A stretch of DNA of 64,000 bases from positions 124,001 to 188,000 of the forward strand of contig NZ_JAIXCQ010000008.1 in the NCBI RefSeq assembly GCF_020297055.1, in the 5' to 3' direction. Source of the DNA: Isoptericola luteus. Lineage in GTDB: Bacteria > Actinomycetota > Actinomycetes > Actinomycetales > Cellulomonadaceae. Shown one piece after another: positions 43,579 to 52,045 of this stretch. Position numbers and translations under genes: made by a program. Position 1 is the stretch's first letter; each line of letters starts with the position of its first letter. The notes under the pieces were generated by a model that saw only the letters and a list, made by a program, of their open reading frames with translations, made no database searches and was not told where the DNA came from.

Positions 43579-43620
43579 CAAACGAGCGTGCTCATATGTG
43601 TCGTGCACCGCGCTCGTTTG
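43579..43620. promoter_or_regulatory. Operator-like inverted repeat upstream of the polyol dehydrogenase
   Basis: CAAACGAGCG (43579-43588) and its exact complement CGCTCGTTTG (43611-43620) flank an AT-rich centre (TGCTCATATG). The half-site CARAYGAG also occurs twice in the promoter of the polyol-type ABC importer at 52139-52167, suggesting one shared regulator (the SorC protein at 51098-52045). Confidence 0.6.
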
Positions 43621-43662
43621 CTACGTTGGCCGTCGGGCCAGACGAAGGAGCGAGGACGCACC

Positions 43663-45147
43663 ATGACCGCACTGCGCGACGAGACCGTGGGAGACCTGAC
43701 CGGCGGGGACCTCCCGGTCGCCGTACCGACGTACGACCGGTCGGCGCTGCGCGCCGGCATCGTCCACCTCGGTGTCGGGGGGTTCCACCGCGCGCACCAG
43801 GCGATGTACCTCGACCGGCTGATGACCGAGGGCAAGGCGCTCGACTGGGCGATCTGCGGCGTCGGCGTCCTGCCCCACGACGCCCGGATGCGCGACGCCC
43901 TGATGAGCCAGGACGGGCTGTACACGCTGGTGCTCAAGCACCCGGACGGCACGCTCGAGGGCCGCGTCATCGGGTCGATCGTGGACTTCCTGCTCGCGCC
44001 GGACGATCCGGAGGCGGTCATCGAGAAGATGGCCTCGCCCCAGATCAGGATCGTCTCCCTGACCGTCACCGAGGGCGGCTACAACGTCCACCCGGTGACG
44101 GGGGAGTTCGACGCCCAGGACCCGGCGGTCGTGGCCGACCTCGCGCCGGGCGCCGTTCCTGCGACCACGTTCGGGCTGGTCACGGAGGCGCTGCGCCGTC
44201 GTCGGGACCGCGGCGTCACGCCGTTCACCGTGGCCAGCTGCGACAACATCCAGGGCAACGGCGACGTCGCGCACCGGATGTTCACCGCGTTCGCGCGCCT
44301 CAAGGACGCCGAGCTCGCCGGCTGGATCGAGGCGAACGTGCCCTTCCCGAACTCGATGGTCGACCGCATCACGCCCGTGACCACGGACGACGACCGGGCC
44401 ATGGTCGCGGACCGGTTCGGCATCGACGACGCCTGGCCCGTGGTGGCGGAGCCGTTCACGCAGTGGGTGATCGAGGACCGGTTCGCGGACGGTCGCCCGC
44501 CTTACGAGGACGTCGGAGCGCAGCTCGTGGACGACGTCGAGCCGTACGAGCTCATGAAGCTCCGGCTCCTCAACTCCAGCCACCAGGCGCTGTGCTACCT
44601 CGGCTACCTCGCCGGGTACCGGTACGCGCACGAGGTCTGCTCGGACCCGGCGTTCGTGCAGTTCCTGCGCGACTACATGGCTCGCGAGGGCGAGCCGACG
44701 ATGCTGCCCGTGCCCGGCATCGACCTCGCCGCGTACCAGGACACGCTCATCGAGCGGTTCGCCAACCCCCACGTGCGCGACACCCTCGCACGGCTGTGCG
44801 CCGAGTCGTCCGACCGCATCCCCAAGTGGCTGGTCCCCGTGATCCGGGCGAACCTCGCGTCCGGGGGCGAGATCCACCGGTCGGCCGCCGTCGTCGCCTC
44901 CTGGGCGCGCTACGACGAGGGCGTCGACGAGCAGGGCGAGCCCATCGAGATCGTGGACCGGTACGCAGACCGGCTCAAGGCCGCCGCGGCGAGGAACCGC
45001 GAGGACCCGCTGGCCTTCGTGCGCGACGAGGAGCTCTTCGGGGACCTGGCCTCCCAGCCGCGCTTCGTCGAGGCGTACACCGCGGCACTCGACTCGCTGC
45101 ACGCGCTCGGTGCCCGGGCGACGGTGGTGAAACTGGCCGGCGCCTGA
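43663..45147 (+). CDS. Mannitol dehydrogenase family protein (polyol/fructuronate oxidoreductase)
   Basis: 494 residues from ATG 43663 (GAAGGAG and GAGG upstream). It is an NAD-dependent long-chain dehydrogenase: N-terminal Rossmann region (AGIVHLGVGGFHRAHQAMYLD), SLTVTEGGYN, FTVASCDNIQGNGDV, VPFPNSMVDRITPVT, and the catalytic K-N-H signature LMKLRLLNSSHQALCYLGYLAG. It oxidises mannitol, arabinitol or sorbitol to the ketose; fructuronate reduction is a related possibility. Length is typical. Shared half-sites with the ABC importer 7 kb downstream suggest a mannitol/polyol-utilisation regulon broken up by the IS and the ABC/peptide module. Confidence 0.88.
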   Translation: MTALRDETVGDLTGGDLPVAVPTYDRSALRAGIVHLGVGGFHRAHQAMYLDRLMTEGKALDWAICGVGVLPHDARMRDALMSQDGLYTLVLKHPDGTLEGRVIGSIVDFLLAPDDPEAVIEKMASPQIRIVSLTVTEGGYNVHPVTGEFDAQDPAVVADLAPGAVPATTFGLVTEALRRRRDRGVTPFTVASCDNIQGNGDVAHRMFTAFARLKDAELAGWIEANVPFPNSMVDRITPVTTDDDRAMVADRFGIDDAWPVVAEPFTQWVIEDRFADGRPPYEDVGAQLVDDVEPYELMKLRLLNSSHQALCYLGYLAGYRYAHEVCSDPAFVQFLRDYMAREGEPTMLPVPGIDLAAYQDTLIERFANPHVRDTLARLCAESSDRIPKWLVPVIRANLASGGEIHRSAAVVASWARYDEGVDEQGEPIEIVDRYADRLKAAAARNREDPLAFVRDEELFGDLASQPRFVEAYTAALDSLHALGARATVVKLAGA

Positions 45148-45168
45148 GGACAAGAGCGCATGTGCCGG

Positions 45169-45178
45169 ACATTAGCGG
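45169..45178 (+). repeat. Target-site duplication, left copy
   Basis: ACATTAGCGG immediately left of the IS terminal repeat; the identical copy is at 46682-46691. A 10-bp duplication fits IS4-family insertion. Confidence 0.8.
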
Positions 45179-46582
45179 CAACGCCATTCGGTGAGCCGTC
45201 GGGTGCGTGCGTCAAGACGGTGGTCTGGATCGTGACGGGGCGGGTGCGGCGGTCGGCGTTGCGTTCCTTGGCGCGGTACATGGAGATCGCGCGTTTGATG
45301 ATGCGGGCGCGGATTCGTGGGCGGCGTGCGGGCATCAGGGCCTCCAGGACGGCGGTGCCGATACGGCCCACGAGGTCGATCGTGGTGTCGTTGATGATCC
45401 CGGTGGCGCGGATGACCTGGTCGCGGGCGGTTTTCGGCGCGATGTGAACGAGGCCCGGTCCGGGTCGATGTCGGGCCGGGCCAGAACGGCGTCGGCCATG
45501 GCGGTCCGCAGGATCTGGTAGGTGGCCAGTAGTGCCCAGGTCTCCTGGACGACGGCGGCGGGGTGACGAGCGCGTAGGACCCGCCCGCCCAGGATCGTGG
45601 ACTTCGGCTCGAGGTAGGACGTCTCGATCTCCCACCGCTGGTGGTAGAGCCGCACCAGTGTGATCGCGGGTGCCTCGCGGGGGTCGGTGAGCGTGGCCAG
45701 TAGCCGGTAGGTCCCGGACTGGGTGGTGCCGTCCGGGGCCCTGGAGATGATCTGCGCGTCGATGACCCGCACGGACACGTCCCCGGCCCTGGTCAGGAAC
45801 GATCCGTCGGCCAGCCGTTCCCCGACGGGCAGTTTCATCGCGTTCGTGCCCGTCTTGGCGCGGATCAGCAGGTCCGCGCCGGTCTGGGAGACCTGGGCCA
45901 GGAACCGGTAGGTCGCGAAGTTCCGGTCGGCGAGCAGCAGCATCCCGGCCCGTAGACCACCGGTGGCGGCCAGCTGGGCGGCATAGGTCAGTTCCCCGAC
46001 CTTGTCGGTGCCGAACACCGCCTCGATCACCGACCGGGTGCCGCAGGCCACGACCGCGACCAGGCGCAGCATCGGATACCCCGCAGCGCCGTTCGGCCCG
46101 GGCGACGGCTTGGGGAACACCGCCAGGTTCGCCGGGCTGTGCGCCACGGCGATCTGGGTGCCGTCGATCGCGACGACCAGCCTCTCGGCGAACCGCGCCG
46201 CCTGCCTAGCGGTGGTCGCGGCACCACCCTTGAGCAGGTCGAACAGCGCCTTGAGCGATCCGGGACCGACCCGCCGCATCGCCTCGGTCACCGACGCGGG
46301 CGCGGGCGCGGGCTGCTCACCGGGCAAAGAGGCGGTCAGCCTCGCCCAGACCTGCCCCCATCCCAGATGCTCGAACAGGCCCCCGGCGAGCAGCAGGTAG
46401 ACCACCACCCGTGACGGCAGCAACCGCACCCGCCGCTGCACGCCGACGGCCGCGGCCAGGACCGCGTCGACCATCTCGAACGGCACGAGGCGAGTCAGCT
46501 CGCCCAGGTGCCCAGGAGCCGACACGCCCGGAGCATGACGGATGACAGAATCGGACACAGCAGCCTTTGTGGAGGTGGGCAC
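45179..46582 (-). pseudogene. IS4-family transposase, frameshifted
   Basis: The frame from GTG 46582 carries the DDE transposase: RRVRLLPSRVVVYLLLAGGLFEHLGW, VVAIDGTQIAVAHSP (first Asp), MLLLADRNFATYRFL (second Asp), RLYHQRWEIETSYLEPK with the YREK-type Glu. It then reads DPDRASFT and drifts out of frame. The proper C-terminus (TARDQVIRATGIINDTTIDL, then PARRPRIRARIIKRAISMYRAK) lies in the next frame, so one base is missing near 45441-45446. A slip on AAAA could in principle bypass this. The corrected frame has no stop before the element's left end. Probably inactive. Confidence 0.8.
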
Positions 46583-46681
46583 GTCTTGGCGGACAAGACC
46601 ACTTCTACAAGGGCCGCACCCCTATGACCAGGCACAACAGCGACTTGACCTCAAGTCGAGACCCGCAACCGAACGGCGTTG
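45179..46681. mobile_element. IS4-family insertion sequence, 1503 bp
   Basis: The element is bounded by imperfect terminal inverted repeats (CAACGCCATTCGGT on the left, CAACGCCGTTCGGT read inward from the right) and a 10-bp direct target repeat ACATTAGCGG. It contains one transposase gene on the minus strand. Length, repeat type and duplication size fit the IS4 family. The right end terminates in GGCGTTG, which contributes TTG to a hybrid -35 box for the downstream operon. Confidence 0.85.
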
Positions 46682-46707
46682 ACATTAGCGGTGAGTCGCC
46701 CTAGGTT
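46679..46707 (+). promoter_or_regulatory. Hybrid promoter formed at the IS right junction
   Basis: TTGACA (46679-46684) has its TTG in the IS terminal repeat and its ACA in the target duplication. After exactly 17 bp comes TAGGTT (46702-46707), a good actinobacterial -10. Before insertion the same place would have read CGGACA, a poor -35. The promoter points at the secreted peptide/ABC operon; a GAGGAGGAG sits downstream in the leader. Confidence 0.7.
46682..46691 (+). repeat. Target-site duplication, right copy
   Basis: ACATTAGCGG, identical to 45169-45178. Its first three bases complete the hybrid -35 box TTGACA with the IS end. Confidence 0.8.
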
Positions 46708-46726
46708 CCTGCGAGGAGGAGCACCC

Positions 46727-46767
46727 TGTGGCCACGCCCTTGTGGCCAGCCCTTGTGGCCACGCCCT
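46727..46767 (+). repeat. Three tandem 13-14 bp repeats in the operon leader
   Basis: TGTGGCCACGCCCT, TGTGGCCAGCCCT, TGTGGCCACGCCCT follow one another without gaps. Units 1 and 3 contain the self-complementary GTGGCCAC and could form a hairpin upstream of the ribosome site (GGAGGTG at 46774-46780). Confidence 0.75.
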
Positions 46768-46782
46768 CGACGTGGAGGTGTC

Positions 46783-47175
46783 GTGAAGGCTCGCACAATG
46801 GTGGGTTCGATCGTGCTGGCGGCTCTGCTCGCAACACCGACCGCAGCGCACGGGATCCAGGCCACGCTGCACTCGACAGCGACGGGTGTCGACTCGTGGA
46901 ATTTTGATCAGGGCAACACCGCGACGCAGTTCTTCAAGGCGGGAGTCAAGGTCAAGGACACGGCTGCCGACAACCACGCGGTCTACTCCACCTACACCCT
47001 CCGGGATCTAGCGGTCGGCAGGACCGAGGCCGAGGCGCGGAGGAACAACCACGGTGGATACGGCTCGACGGCCACGGTCGGTGGTTACACGAACCACAAG
47101 GTGGTCAAGCACCGGGGATCCGTCGATATCCAGTTGCTCCCCGACCGGCACGGGGCCTGGCGGTACCCGAGCTGA
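46783..47175 (+). CDS. Secreted peptide of unknown family, operon partner of an ABC transporter
   Basis: 130 residues from GTG 46783 (GGAGG four bases upstream). Signal peptide MKARTMVGSIVLAALLATPTAAHG (about 24 residues) is followed by a mature chain of about 105 residues with no cysteine, rich in His, Asn, Gly, Thr (NNHGGYGSTATVGGYTNHKVVKHRG). The mature chain is basic and looks beta-rich. The stop overlaps the next ATG by one base. The arrangement secreted peptide, ABC ATPase, FtsX-like permease resembles lactococcin 972-type bacteriocin loci, but the tryptophan-containing signature of that family is absent. Either a bacteriocin-like effector or a peptide handled by the transporter. Confidence 0.68.
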   Translation: MKARTMVGSIVLAALLATPTAAHGIQATLHSTATGVDSWNFDQGNTATQFFKAGVKVKDTAADNHAVYSTYTLRDLAVGRTEAEARRNNHGGYGSTATVGGYTNHKVVKHRGSVDIQLLPDRHGAWRYPS

Positions 47176-47855
47176 TGCTTTCCGGGACGCCGGCGGTCGT
47201 CCTCGACGAAGTCGAAGTCGTCGTCGGCCACGCGGTGGCGCTCCCAGCGACGGACCTGTGTCTGGCGGAGGGCGAGATCCTCGCATTGATGGGTCCGTCT
47301 GGCAGTGGCAAGACGACGCTGCTCGACTGTGTGCTCGGCACCCGGCTTCCGACGTCGGGCAGGGTGACCGTGCTCGGGGTCGACCTCGGCGGTCGGTCTC
47401 CTTCCGAGGTCAGTCGACTGCGACGACGTTCCATCGGAATCGTCGCGCAGAACCCTCAGCTGCTGCCTGAGCTCTCCGTGGTCGAGAACGTCGCCGTCGC
47501 CCTCCTGTTCAACGGAGTGCCGCGCCGGCGGGCGCTAGCGCGCGGGCAGGCGGTGCTCGAGGAGGTCGGGCTTTCGGACGCGATGACCAAGAGACCGGGC
47601 CACCTCTCCGGTGGAGAGGCACAGCGGGTCGCGCTGGCCCGTGCGTTGGCGCAGGACGACGTCAGGCTCCTCGTGGCGGACGAGCCGACGGCCGCCCTTG
47701 ACGAGGCATCAGTCATCGCCACGACCGACCTGCTCGTCGGGACGGCCAGGACTCGAGGCGTGTCAGTCGTCGTCGCGACCCACGACCGCGCGGTCGCGGC
47801 CCGATGTGACCGCGTCCAGATGCTCCGGCACGGCAGCCTCATGACTCCCTCGTGA
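47175..47855 (+). CDS. ABC transporter ATP-binding protein (MacB/LolD-type)
   Basis: 226 residues, start overlapping the previous stop by 1 nt. Walker A is GPSGSGKTTLLDC (about residues 40-52), Q-loop VAQNPQLLPELSVVENV, signature LSGGEAQRVALARAL, Walker B LLVADEPTAALDEAS and H-loop VATHDRAVAARCD. This is the MacB/LolD/BceA subclass, which pairs with FtsX-like permeases and acts on lipids, peptides or toxins at the membrane. The TGA overlaps the GTG of the permease gene. Codon use is less strictly GC3 than neighbours. Confidence 0.92.
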   Translation: MLSGTPAVVLDEVEVVVGHAVALPATDLCLAEGEILALMGPSGSGKTTLLDCVLGTRLPTSGRVTVLGVDLGGRSPSEVSRLRRRSIGIVAQNPQLLPELSVVENVAVALLFNGVPRRRALARGQAVLEEVGLSDAMTKRPGHLSGGEAQRVALARALAQDDVRLLVADEPTAALDEASVIATTDLLVGTARTRGVSVVVATHDRAVAARCDRVQMLRHGSLMTPS

Positions 47856-50044
47856 TCACGGCCGTCAGGCTCGCCCTGAGGCTCGCTCTGAGCCGTGATG
47901 CTCGTCAGCGGTGGCGTCAGGTGAGCATCATCGGGTCAGCGGCGCTCGCTGCGTTCGTCCTCGTCCTCGGTGTTGTGGTCGTGGCGGCGTCCGCAGAGGT
48001 CGAGGCGAAGCTCTCTGCGCGGATGCCGATCTCGCCGACGGACGACATCGGCGAGAGCCTGCTGACGCTGACGCCGCGAGGGTTCGTCATCGAAGATCAG
48101 GAAGTGTTCCTCCGGTGGATCGAGCCGTTGCCGGGGCACGAGGATGATCCCGATGTCGTGCCGCCGGGCCTTGCGCGACTTCCGGAACCAGGCGAAGCGG
48201 TCCTGTCCCCGGGCCTCGTCCAGCTCGGTTACGACGCCGCCGATCTCGGCCTCGTGTCGTCCGGAGCCGGCACGGGTGTCGACGGGACGATCGGACCCGA
48301 GGGTGTCGGGACTCAGGACGAGCTTGTCGTCTGGGTGCGTCCCGAAGAGGGTCGGAGCCTCGAGGGTGAGGGGATCGCGGTCGTGCGCTTCCCCTCGTCG
48401 ACCGAGGTCGCGGCGATGGAGGATCATGAAGACGTCCTCGCCGACTATCCGATGCTCCGTCTCACCGAGGCATCCACGCTGGTGCTCACGTTCTTCGTCA
48501 TCCCCGCGCTGCTGATGCTCGTGCTGTCCACAAGGGCCAGGTCCGAGGTGCGGACGGAGCGCTCGGAGTTCCTCCTGCTTCTCGGGGTCTCACGCACCTT
48601 GGTGCGGGGGATTCTCGCGCTCGAGGGCGCCGTCCTCGCAGGCGTCGGCGCCCTGGCAGGAGCGTTCGTCCACGTGCTGATCGGGCCGACGTTCACCACC
48701 GTTCCGTTGACGGGGACAAATTTTCTGCCTGGGGCGCTGCAGGCGCAGCCCTTCGCCCTGCTCGACGGCTCGGCCCTGGTCGTCGCGACCGCCGCGTTCG
48801 CCTGTGCTGCGGGCAGGCTCGAGCCGTCCCTACGGCTGCGGCCGATGCGTCGGGTGAGCGGCTGGCGGGCCGTGCCGGTGCTCCTGGGCACCTTGGCCGT
48901 CGCGAGCACGGCACTGCTGAAGATCGACGGCACCGCCCTGTTCGTCGTGGGTGTGCTGTTCGTCGCGTTGGGCTTGCCGGTCTCCGCGGCTTGGTTCGCC
49001 CAGCAGGCGGCTCGGGTCTGGGGGAGAAGGCCTGACCCGGCCGTGTGGATGGCGTCGGCGAGAATCGTCCACGACCCTCAGCGGGCCGCCCGGGTCGCGG
49101 CCCTTCTCGGCCTTTCCGTCTTCCTCGGGGCGACGAGCGTGTCCATGTATCTGGGGCCGATGGGCGGGATGACCTCGGGGTCGAGCTCGTCGTCGGGTGC
49201 GGCGGCTGCTTACTCCGTGGATTGGTTGGACGGCCGTGACGGCGATCTCATGACGCTCACGCAACGGATGGCTGACATCGACGACGCGGTGCTCGTCCTG
49301 CCCGTGGGTCACGAGGCGTCCGCTGACGACTACCGTGTTCCAGCCGTCGGGCTCGACGACTGCGCCACGCTCGAGCCGTTGGCCGGATTCCTGGGCGGCG
49401 CGCCGTGCGACTCCTCTGGGGCGCCGACGAGCCAGGTGCGCGACACGTTCCGCGAGGCTCTCGACCTTGAGATCGTCGAGACCTCTGGGCTCGTGGGCGG
49501 GAGCGGATCCGGCGACTCGCAGGTGATCAGTGCTGCCCTGCTGTTGGCGGACCACTCCGTGTCCGCGGCGAGCGTGCATCACGCCGGCGCACCACTGCCC
49601 GGGTTCAACCCGGCCGACCTTATGAGCACCCGCATGTCCTGGGGAGTGATCGCGGGATGGATCGCCGCAGTGTGGGCGATATCGGTCCTCACCCTGGGCG
49701 CCGCCGTCCTCCGCGAGCTGATCGAGCACGCGCGCGAGGTGCACCGTGACACCCGGCGCCTGGTACTCATCGGACTCGAGCCAGCAGAGTCGGCACGTGT
49801 CGGCCGGTGGACGCTCCTCATACCGATTGCGGCGACGATCCCGGTGAGCTTCGTCTGCGGCCTTCTCGCCTCGTTCTTCGGGACGGGGCCCGAGGTCACG
49901 CGCTACACGCCGGCATGGATCACGCTCTACACGGTGATCGCGCTGGTCATGACGGGCGTCGCGGTCGCGGCGGGCGGCCTCATGACCGCGGCGGACCGTC
50001 GTCGCGGGCGGCGGACTCGCGGACCGCGCGCGCTTCAGCGATAG
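47852..50044 (+). CDS. FtsX/MacB-like ABC permease
   Basis: 730 residues from GTG 47852. About ten membrane helices are arranged as in BceB/FtsX-type permeases: helix 1 (about 24-47), a large extracytoplasmic domain (about 48-205), helices at about 208-228, 253-280, 303-322, 342-362, 366-388 and 415-435, a second extracytoplasmic domain (about 440-605) with GMTSGSSSSSGAAAAYSVDW, and three final helices (about 612-640, 665-690, 700-720). With the ATPase it likely extrudes, senses or gives immunity to a peptide. The last 65 bp overlap the convergent YihY-like gene. Not recognised as a named subfamily. Confidence 0.8.
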   Translation: MITAVRLALRLALSRDARQRWRQVSIIGSAALAAFVLVLGVVVVAASAEVEAKLSARMPISPTDDIGESLLTLTPRGFVIEDQEVFLRWIEPLPGHEDDPDVVPPGLARLPEPGEAVLSPGLVQLGYDAADLGLVSSGAGTGVDGTIGPEGVGTQDELVVWVRPEEGRSLEGEGIAVVRFPSSTEVAAMEDHEDVLADYPMLRLTEASTLVLTFFVIPALLMLVLSTRARSEVRTERSEFLLLLGVSRTLVRGILALEGAVLAGVGALAGAFVHVLIGPTFTTVPLTGTNFLPGALQAQPFALLDGSALVVATAAFACAAGRLEPSLRLRPMRRVSGWRAVPVLLGTLAVASTALLKIDGTALFVVGVLFVALGLPVSAAWFAQQAARVWGRRPDPAVWMASARIVHDPQRAARVAALLGLSVFLGATSVSMYLGPMGGMTSGSSSSSGAAAAYSVDWLDGRDGDLMTLTQRMADIDDAVLVLPVGHEASADDYRVPAVGLDDCATLEPLAGFLGGAPCDSSGAPTSQVRDTFREALDLEIVETSGLVGGSGSGDSQVISAALLLADHSVSAASVHHAGAPLPGFNPADLMSTRMSWGVIAGWIAAVWAISVLTLGAAVLRELIEHAREVHRDTRRLVLIGLEPAESARVGRWTLLIPIAATIPVSFVCGLLASFFGTGPEVTRYTPAWITLYTVIALVMTGVAVAAGGLMTAADRRRGRRTRGPRALQR

Positions 50045-51038
50045 CGTCGCGCCGCTTAGCTTCCTTCTTGTCGCTGGCGCGCGTGTCGCGTGGCGGGAGC
50101 TGGATGGACTCCTCGGCGGCGATACCGCCCTGCAGCTCGCGGCTGCGCTCCAGCTCGGCGTCGAGCTCGGCTCCGAACAGGAGCGCGAGGTTGGTGATCC
50201 ACAGCCACAGCAGGAACACGATCACGGTGCCGAGGAGCCCGTAGGACCCGTAGTTGCCGAAGTTCGCCACGTAGAAGCCGAAGGCGGCCGACGCGATCGC
50301 CCAGACGACGATCGCCACGAGGGCGCCGATGCTGATCCAGCGGAACTTGGGCTGCCGCACGTTCGGCGTCAGGTGGTAGAGCAGGGCGACGACGATGACG
50401 ACGAGCAGCAGCGCGAACGGCCACTTCGCGATGTTCCACACGGTGATCGCGACGTCGCCCAGCCCCACTGCCGAGCCGACCGCGCGCGCCACGGGTCCGG
50501 ACAGCACCAGGCTCGCGACGACGAGGGCCGCGAGGAGGACGACGACGAGCGTGACGAGGAGCATGATCGGGCGCAGCTTCCAGATGGGGCGCCCCTCCTC
50601 GACCTCGTACACCCGGTTCATGGCCCGCCCGAACGCGTTCACGTAGCCGGAGGCCGACCACAGGGCGATGACGAGGCCGACGACGAGGGCGAGCCCGGCG
50701 CCCGTCGAGCCCACCAGCTGCTCGACGAGGGGCTGGATGATCGCCAGCGTCTCTTCCGGCAGGAAGTCGCTGAGCGTCGTCAGGATCGAGTCGATCGCCG
50801 CCTTGGGGTCGCCGACGAAGCCGAGCAGGGACACCAGCGCCAGCGTGGCGGGTGCCGCGGCCAGGACGGCGTAGTAGGTCAGTGCGGCGGCCAGGTCGGT
50901 GCACTGGTCGTCCATGAACTCGCGGACGGCCCCCTTGAACGCCAGCTTCCACGACGGCTTGCGCAGGTCGGGCGGGGAGTCTGGCTTGCGCGGGTCGTCG
51001 GGGGCGGGTTCGGTGCGATGCTCGCCGGTCTCGGTCAT
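49980..51038 (-). CDS. YihY/BrkB family membrane protein
   Basis: 352 residues from ATG 51038, with GGGAGGT upstream. Six to seven membrane helices and family blocks: FMDDQCTDLAAALTYYAVLAAAPATLALVSLLG, ALWSASGYVNAFGRAMNRVYEVEEGRPIWKLRP, LLYHLTPNVRQPKFRWISIGALVAIVVWAIASAAFGFYVANFGNYGSYGLLGTVIVFLLWLWI and NLALLFGAELDAELE. The family is unrelated to RNase BN despite older naming; function unknown, sometimes linked to envelope or export. Its 3' end overlaps the ABC permease gene by 65 bp. Confidence 0.9.
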   Translation of the reverse strand: MTETGEHRTEPAPDDPRKPDSPPDLRKPSWKLAFKGAVREFMDDQCTDLAAALTYYAVLAAAPATLALVSLLGFVGDPKAAIDSILTTLSDFLPEETLAIIQPLVEQLVGSTGAGLALVVGLVIALWSASGYVNAFGRAMNRVYEVEEGRPIWKLRPIMLLVTLVVVLLAALVVASLVLSGPVARAVGSAVGLGDVAITVWNIAKWPFALLLVVIVVALLYHLTPNVRQPKFRWISIGALVAIVVWAIASAAFGFYVANFGNYGSYGLLGTVIVFLLWLWITNLALLFGAELDAELERSRELQGGIAAEESIQLPPRDTRASDKKEAKRRDAIAEARAVRESAARDDGPPRS

Positions 51039-51097
51039 GCGTACCTCCCTGGTGACCCCCAGGTTCGGCCGGGTCGCGGTGTTCCGCACGTCGAGGC

Positions 51098-52045
51098 TCA
51101 GGCCGAGGGCGCCTCGAGCAGGTGCTCCATCTCGAGCGCGGCGGCCTCGTCGCACACGAGGACGGTGGCGACGCCGCCCAGCACGGCGGCGCGCAGCCCG
51201 GCTCCGGCCTGGGCGCCGTAGCCCACGGCCACGACCTCGGGGGTGCGCACGAGCTGGTCGAGGGTCACGCCGACGACGCGGGCGTCGAGCGGCGTGACGA
51301 CGCGCCGCCCCGCGGCGTCGAACAGCCGCCCCGAGCACTCGGCGATCGCCCCGCCGGCGGCCGCGGCGCGACGCTCGTCACCGGTGACCTGCGGGTAGAC
51401 GGTGGAGCCGGTGTCGGTCCAGGCGCCGACGGCGACGACGGCCAGGTCGAGGCTGTCCGCACGGTCGAGGGCGGCGGCGATCTCGGTCTGACGGCGCATG
51501 CCGGCGGCGGTGGACGGGTCACCGACGAGCAGCGGCGACCATACGGGCCACGTGCGCACGCCCGACATCGAGCGGAAGGTCTGGGTCAGCCCGAGCGAGT
51601 CGCCGGCGCCGCTGACGGGCAGCGCCCCGACGAGCTGGACGACGTCGCACGGGGGCAGCGTGCCGAGGTGGTGCACGGCCGCCTCGACCGTGCGCGACCA
51701 GGAGATGCCGATCGTGGTGCCGGCGGGCGCCCGCTCGGCGAGCACGCGGGCGAGGGCGTGCGCGACGGAGGTGCGGGTGCCCTCCGCGTCCGAGCCGGAC
51801 GGCACGACGACCACCTGCTCCGCGCCGAGGGCGTCGGCGAGACGCCGGGACCGTTCGCCGTCCAGGTGGGCGGGCGGGGTGATCTCGATGCGCACGATCC
51901 CGGAGTCCCGGGCCTCCGCGAGCAACCGGGCGACCTGGAACCGGGACACGCCGTAGCGCTGCGCGATGTCCACCTTCGACGATCCGTCGAGGTAGTAGTC
52001 GCGGCTCACGTCGACGAGGAGCCGCGCGTGCTCGGGATCGGACAC
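51098..52045 (-). CDS. SorC/DeoR-type sugar-binding transcriptional regulator
   Basis: 315 residues from GTG 52045 (GAGGAA just upstream). The helix-turn-helix is RLLVDVSRDYYLDGSSKVDIAQRYGVSRFQVARLLAEARDSGIVRI. The large C-terminal domain shows SorC features: VVVPSGSD, GTTIGISWSRTVEAAVHHL, VVQLVGALP, AGDSLGLTQTFRSMSG and VAVGAWTDTGSTVY, binding phosphorylated or free sugars and polyols. It is divergent from the polyol-type importer. CARAYGAG half-sites upstream of both the importer and the polyol dehydrogenase are its probable targets. Confidence 0.88.
   Translation of the reverse strand: MSDPEHARLLVDVSRDYYLDGSSKVDIAQRYGVSRFQVARLLAEARDSGIVRIEITPPAHLDGERSRRLADALGAEQVVVVPSGSDAEGTRTSVAHALARVLAERAPAGTTIGISWSRTVEAAVHHLGTLPPCDVVQLVGALPVSGAGDSLGLTQTFRSMSGVRTWPVWSPLLVGDPSTAAGMRRQTEIAAALDRADSLDLAVVAVGAWTDTGSTVYPQVTGDERRAAAAGGAIAECSGRLFDAAGRRVVTPLDARVVGVTLDQLVRTPEVVAVGYGAQAGAGLRAAVLGGVATVLVCDEAAALEMEHLLEAPSA

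Follow-up and report, generated by a model that had tools for sequence, protein, structure and literature searches.

A putative hybrid promoter, with a -35 element divided between an IS4-family end and its target, upstream of a peptide/ABC transporter operon in Isoptericola luteus

Insertion sequences (ISs) can transcribe a neighbouring gene through fusion, or hybrid, promoters, in which an outward -35 element at the IS end is joined to a -10 element lying in the flank at the right spacing (PMC9330008). Raised expression through such promoters is listed, in the available part of the same review, for IS1, IS2, IS5, IS6, IS21, IS30, IS256 and IS982. The available text of a study of Paracoccus trap plasmids suggests a hybrid promoter for an IS256-family element (PMC3281130), and an excerpt of a paper on the actinobacterium Leifsonia xyli describes IS1237 upstream of the ISLxc2 transposase gene, with a hybrid promoter proposed from sequence (PMC2516522). 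The putative promoter considered here resembles the reviewed cases in having its -35 at the IS end and its -10 in the flank. The -35 of the reviewed fusion promoters lies within the IS inverted repeat, whereas here it is split, with TTG coming from the IS and ACA from the target; unlike in those cases, TTGACA arises only at targets that begin with ACA, and the genes downstream are not resistance genes (PMC9330008). In the text available for Paracoccus, the -35 likewise comes from the IS end and the -10 lies next to the target site, but that work selected for promoter activity and measured it with reporters, where we present sequence evidence only (PMC3281130). With the L. xyli case, as excerpted, our locus shares an IS upstream of a gene and a sequence-based proposal of a hybrid promoter, although IS1237 belongs to the IS5 family and precedes a different gene, the element here is of the IS4 family, and the excerpt names no hexamers (PMC2516522). 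IS-made fusion promoters are already well documented, and the division of the -35 between IS and target is the distinguishing detail of this one. We found no description of such a split in the literature by a search bound to particular wording, and an earlier description is possible.

The window, meaning the whole 64,000-nucleotide stretch analysed, comes from a genome of 3.97 Mb with a G+C content of 73% (442,837 bases sampled). The IS and three co-directional genes, for a peptide, an ATPase and a permease, lie between a dehydrogenase gene and a YihY/BrkB-family gene, and the 3' end of the permease gene overlaps that of the convergent yihY-like gene. The features are as follows.

43588-45147, + strand: upstream co-directional gene of the mannitol/fructuronate dehydrogenase family (profile matches)
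45169-45178: left target duplication, ACATTAGCGG (sequence; comparison with IS relatives)
45179-46681, - strand: IS4-family insertion sequence, 1503 bp, ends CAACGCC.../...GGCGTTG (ends from relatives)
45335-46582, - strand: transposase reading frame, Nterm_IS4 and DDE_Tnp_1 (profile matches)
46679-46684, + strand: hybrid -35 TTGACA, with TTG (46679-46681) from the IS and ACA (46682-46684) from the duplication
46682-46691: right target duplication, ACATTAGCGG (sequence; comparison with IS relatives)
46702-46707, + strand: -10-like TAGGTT in the native flank
46727-46767, + strand: three tandem units of 13-14 bp (TGTGGCCACGCCCT), predicted to lie in the leader of the peptide gene
46774-46778, + strand: GGAGG, probably the ribosome-binding site of the GTG start at 46783 (by inspection)
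46783-47175, + strand: small protein of 130 aa, GTG start, N-terminus signal-peptide-like by inspection
47175-47855, + strand: ABC transporter ATPase, LolD/FtsE/MacB-like (profile matches)
47852-50044, + strand: FtsX-like permease of 730 aa (weak match: PF02687, 23.3 bits against a cut-off of 25.5)
49980-51338, - strand: convergent downstream gene of the YihY/BrkB family (profile matches)

We compared the ends of the IS with those of related copies. The transposase matches IS4-type models (NF033592, 158.3 bits against a cut-off of 115; PF13006, 85.4 against 25; PF01609, 68.9 against 23), and the comparison set consisted of the best 80 of 286 loci encoding its relatives, all from actinomycete records by their titles, together with the window (81 in all). 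The main scan demanded CAA...TTG ends with inverted repeats; it mapped such ends in 77 of the 81 and left four unmapped. Of the 81, 65 are flanked by a 10-bp duplication that is perfect in 59 and has no more than one mismatch in the others, and 12 have unlike flanks, so the related copies carry both the terminal inverted repeats and the target duplication of constant length that characterise the IS4 family. A looser first scan, for which merely the first two bases of both ends had to agree, placed 68 of the 81, of which 65 have these ends or are shifted by one base and three (L048, L084 and L092) are evidently wrong; 13 were left unplaced. Within the duplication, positions 4-7 usually read (C/T)-T-A-(G/A), in 61, 63, 61 and 62 of the 65 respectively, and the window's ACATTAGCGG conforms. 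Its two copies are identical, and the same ten bases are present only twice on the + strand of the window and are absent from the other strand. Judged by these related copies, TTG is the IS terminus, and both the ends and the 10-bp duplication given in the sequence-only reading are confirmed.

The junction that results consists of TTGACA, a 17-bp spacer (46685-46701) and TAGGTT. This hybrid construction had been put forward beforehand, with TTG taken from the IS, ACA from the duplication and a spacer of 17 bp, and its letters and coordinates proved correct; the proposed empty site, CGGACA, which is derived solely by joining the two flanks, was likewise reproduced and gives CGGACA-17-TAGGTT at the same place. 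The net change at the -35 is therefore of two bases, CG to TT. An outward -35 is present at the IS end, though the IS sequence gives TTG alone, and the flank offers a correctly spaced -10 in TAGGTT after 17 bp. No other TANNNT precedes the peptide start within 300 bp on the + strand, whether the IS is present or removed, and the peptide start codon, with GGAGG before it, follows 75 nt past TAGGTT. An E. coli-type promoter scan made no call at the site because TAGGTT matches TATAAT at three of six positions, which is weak by E. coli standards. The predicted leader with its three tandem units has an ordinary fold (z -0.24), and we rejected a regulatory RNA there on that value and on the lack of any Rfam match at gathering scores in the window.

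Whether such a pair resembles the promoters of this genus can be judged from its distribution. Across 18 genomes of the genus, both strands included, TTGACA-N16-18-TANNNT occurs 138 times against 15 for the reversed pattern, although these sites are not independent, since some evidently represent a single promoter shared by several species; in the 3.97-Mb genome itself the counts are seven against none, again on both strands. The density of TANNNT, by a crude gene call, is 1.69 per kb upstream of genes as compared with 0.26 per kb in coding sequence. Given the rarity of the exact pair and its strong bias to one direction, this sequence class is, on these counts, a real promoter signature in the genus. 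TTGACA with TAGGTT at exactly 17 or 18 bp is found at four of the 131 sites outside the host's own genome (spacers of 17, 17, 17 and 18 by eye), and at all four a coding-like reading frame starts within 300 nt by a crude test. Five of the six other sites in the host genome have a candidate start within 350 nt, and the sixth lies too close to a contig end. In the 442,837 sampled bases, made up of the window and 19 stretches of the genome, the exact pair occurs once, at this junction. CGGACA-N16-18-TANNNT, by comparison, shows no excess in the genus (31 against 54 in the control), and this absence of enrichment in the empty-site class is a sequence proxy for a possible rise in expression over the empty site, as expected of a fusion promoter. 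The counts support a change from a pair that would not have been promoter-like to one that would, with the qualification that enrichment of a motif among evolved promoters is not proof that a fortuitous copy is active.

Junctions of this kind seldom arise among the related elements. Of the 130 ends of the 65 mapped insertions in the comparison set (best 80 of 286 relatives and the window), two spell TTGACA and five, these two included, spell TTGAC followed by any base. Only the window's TTGACA end has a TANNNT at 16-18 bp; the other (L053) has no -10 in place. In the same set about 10 of 130 ends, counting one copy per duplication, have A as their first outward base, and a preference of this IS group for targets beginning with ACA was rejected on this figure together with the two TTGACA ends. 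Beforehand, a chance insertion was unlikely to produce the full pair, but TAGGTT pre-existed and the case was chosen as striking, and the rarity of the junction is not converted into a probability of selection.

The operon was probably acquired, in a neighbourhood that varies within the genus. Relatives of the peptide and permease were not found in the 17 other congeneric genomes searched, two of which are incomplete (74% and 86%). In the family, the permease is found in seven of 221 genomes (E up to 1e-20; five first-look candidates scored per genome) and in the order in three of 396 (E up to 1e-60; two candidates scored per genome), and the peptide in three of 98 relatives, the host's own genome being included each time. 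Outside the genus, six genomes of the family carry relatives of both ATPase and permease, and four of them have a peptide homologue, detected by tblastn in G050, G051 and G228 and by reading the frames in G053, whilst none was recognised in G248 and G135. The third-position G+C of the three operon genes is 0.82-0.85, as against 0.95 in the dehydrogenase gene. Congeneric absence, scattered relatives and lower third-position G+C make it most likely that the operon was acquired by the host lineage. The IS most likely arrived after it, since the duplication flanks the IS alone. That same duplication opposes the reading that the IS carried the operon as part of a composite element, which was also rejected because a second IS copy did not turn up among the 40 of 333 candidates scored in the genome. 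The family, order, plasmid and IMG/VR data searched contained no operon-bearing relative that lacks the IS; scans of IMG/VR returned no relative of the permease or peptide, the plasmid collection gave no peptide relative by tblastn, and matches of the operon DNA to 12 plasmid records cover just 2-3% of its length.

With respect to the flanking genes, the dehydrogenase is present in 12 and the yihY-like gene in 14 of the 18 genus genomes, the host included, at the thresholds used. The two converge in G010, G005 and G004, with 46, 69 and 52 bp between match ends, whereas in G003 a gap of 2.4 kb is filled by a different gene group, so the gap took up different genes in two species. By eye, the group in G003 (L149, G003:C12:59000-64600) comprises a MarR-like regulator, a luciferase-like monooxygenase and an FMN-reductase-like gene. 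In five genomes with both genes (G001, G007, G008, G011 and G014) these lie far apart or on different contigs, and the neighbourhood is therefore common to only part of the genus.

The best explanation of the locus as a whole, and one that we hold with somewhat more confidence than doubt, is that the IS junction built a promoter that transcribes the operon more strongly than the empty site would. According to this account, an IS4-family element inserted between the dehydrogenase gene and the peptide/ABC operon that the lineage had acquired, with a TAGGTT already in place 20 bp downstream; its terminal TTG met a target that happened to begin with ACA, converting the CGGACA of the empty site to TTGACA 17 bp before TAGGTT. 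The junction would then act as a housekeeping-sigma promoter with a start near 46713-46716, from which the peptide, ATPase and permease genes would most likely be transcribed more strongly than from the empty site. An active and probably unregulated promoter of the housekeeping type is the most likely state of the junction as judged from its sequence, and it is plausible that the IS switched on the operon. The sequence itself establishes the anatomy, the IS ends and the fact that the present pair, unlike the empty one, is promoter-like in this genus, whereas we infer activity, the start point, any gain relative to the empty site and any selection on it.

Several other readings deserve consideration, and since they are partly non-exclusive the likelihoods attached to them overlap. 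The junction may have come about by chance and have no effect: the promoter may be dead or play no part, and the operon may stay silent or be transcribed from another site. TTGACA does arise by chance, as the two occurrences among 130 mapped ends and the lack of a -10 at L053 illustrate (best 80 of 286 relatives and the window), and neither the three consensus matches of TAGGTT nor the silence of the E. coli-type scan commends the site. This reading has to contend with the rarity and direction bias of the pair in the genus (138 against 15), which mark it as a real promoter signature, and with the lack of any further TANNNT in the 300 bp ahead of the peptide start, and we regard it as rather unlikely. 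It might equally be asked whether CGGACA-17-TAGGTT was already a working promoter, perhaps dependent on an activator, and whether the IS removed its regulation or slightly changed its strength. CGGACA has four of six matches in the -35, and even before the insertion TAGGTT was suitably spaced from the start. The homologous operons give a divided answer, in that TANNNT lies 92 and 28 bp before the peptide start in G228 and G053, with poor -35s, but 218 bp away in G050 and nowhere within 300 bp in G051. Together with the absence of any excess of the CGGACA class over its control, this leads us to consider a prior promoter improbable.

A further possibility, which is compatible with the junction promoter, concerns what the insertion took away. 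The IS, 1.5 kb long and with an antisense transposase gene, separates the operon from the co-directional dehydrogenase gene; without it, some 120 bp would separate the dehydrogenase stop from the peptide start on the same strand. Given this short gap, and with no terminator-like site in 44900-47300 by a simple scan, the operon may already have had read-through before the insertion. If the IS cut this off and the junction promoter served as a substitute, then net expression of the operon may have fallen or simply become independent. Nothing indicates, however, that the dehydrogenase transcript ran on into the operon, and the terminator scan detects one simple kind only, with 0.6 expected by chance, so that we think such rewiring unlikely. 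The net effect of the insertion on the operon could thus be gain, loss or mere independence. Returning to the junction as a promoter that strengthens transcription, it may further be supposed that the insertion was kept for switching on a newly acquired operon and that the junction became fixed as a domesticated promoter once the transposase was lost, an extension that we consider doubtful. Homology of the transposase to an open relative leaves the frame at about 45443 and continues in another frame to about 45195; the gene looks broken and the IS appears immobile by itself, so the junction is unlikely to be lost through the activity of the IS.

IS-made promoters are well known and no long-standing question is opened by this case. 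If the junction is active, it would be a clean example of a two-base change (CG to TT), with no full promoter imported, that provides the transcription start of a newly acquired operon, and it would illustrate how activation of a neighbour by an IS end depends on the bases at the point of insertion. If the insertion was indeed kept for activation, then IS groups with a TTG end would supply "half-promoters" in general, with the first three target bases deciding their activity.

In the available part of its description, the lactococcin 972 cluster, lcn972-orf2-orf3, has a small peptide gene followed by two putative ABC transporter genes, and the likeness to the operon here is in layout only (PMC4055356). 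We rejected a cluster of this type given that the window peptide matches no model of the family in Pfam or NCBIfam (E up to 10) and that the ATPase scores 137.7 bits with TIGR03608, far under the cut-off of 254.85. The peptide has no match in Pfam or NCBIfam (E up to 10), PADLOC or PDB sequences, and a known bacteriocin or defence family was rejected for it on these grounds; its four homologues, which adjoin homologous ABC genes in four other genera, have weak, unrelated profile matches only, with no lactococcin model among them. The ATPase matches PADLOC models, best mad3 at 2.6e-28, which we take as general ABC/ATPase similarity. The window peptide lacks two cysteines that are common to three of its four aligned homologues, and in the fourth one cysteine is aligned and the other lies a few columns off.

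As for the wider occurrence of the element, there is one IS match in the host genome (40 of 333 first-look candidates scored). The longest IS DNA matches in the family are at 67% (G234 and G252), and short matches are all that most of the 158 genomes listed out of 221 gave. On plasmids, relatives were found in 79 records, with identities of 60-80% throughout, and none of these is a near-identical copy. An 8-bp inverted repeat, CGACTTGA-CC-TCAAGTCG, can be seen by eye inside the IS end at 46641-46658, ahead of the transposase gene, and this is perhaps an operator or part of the transposase promoter.
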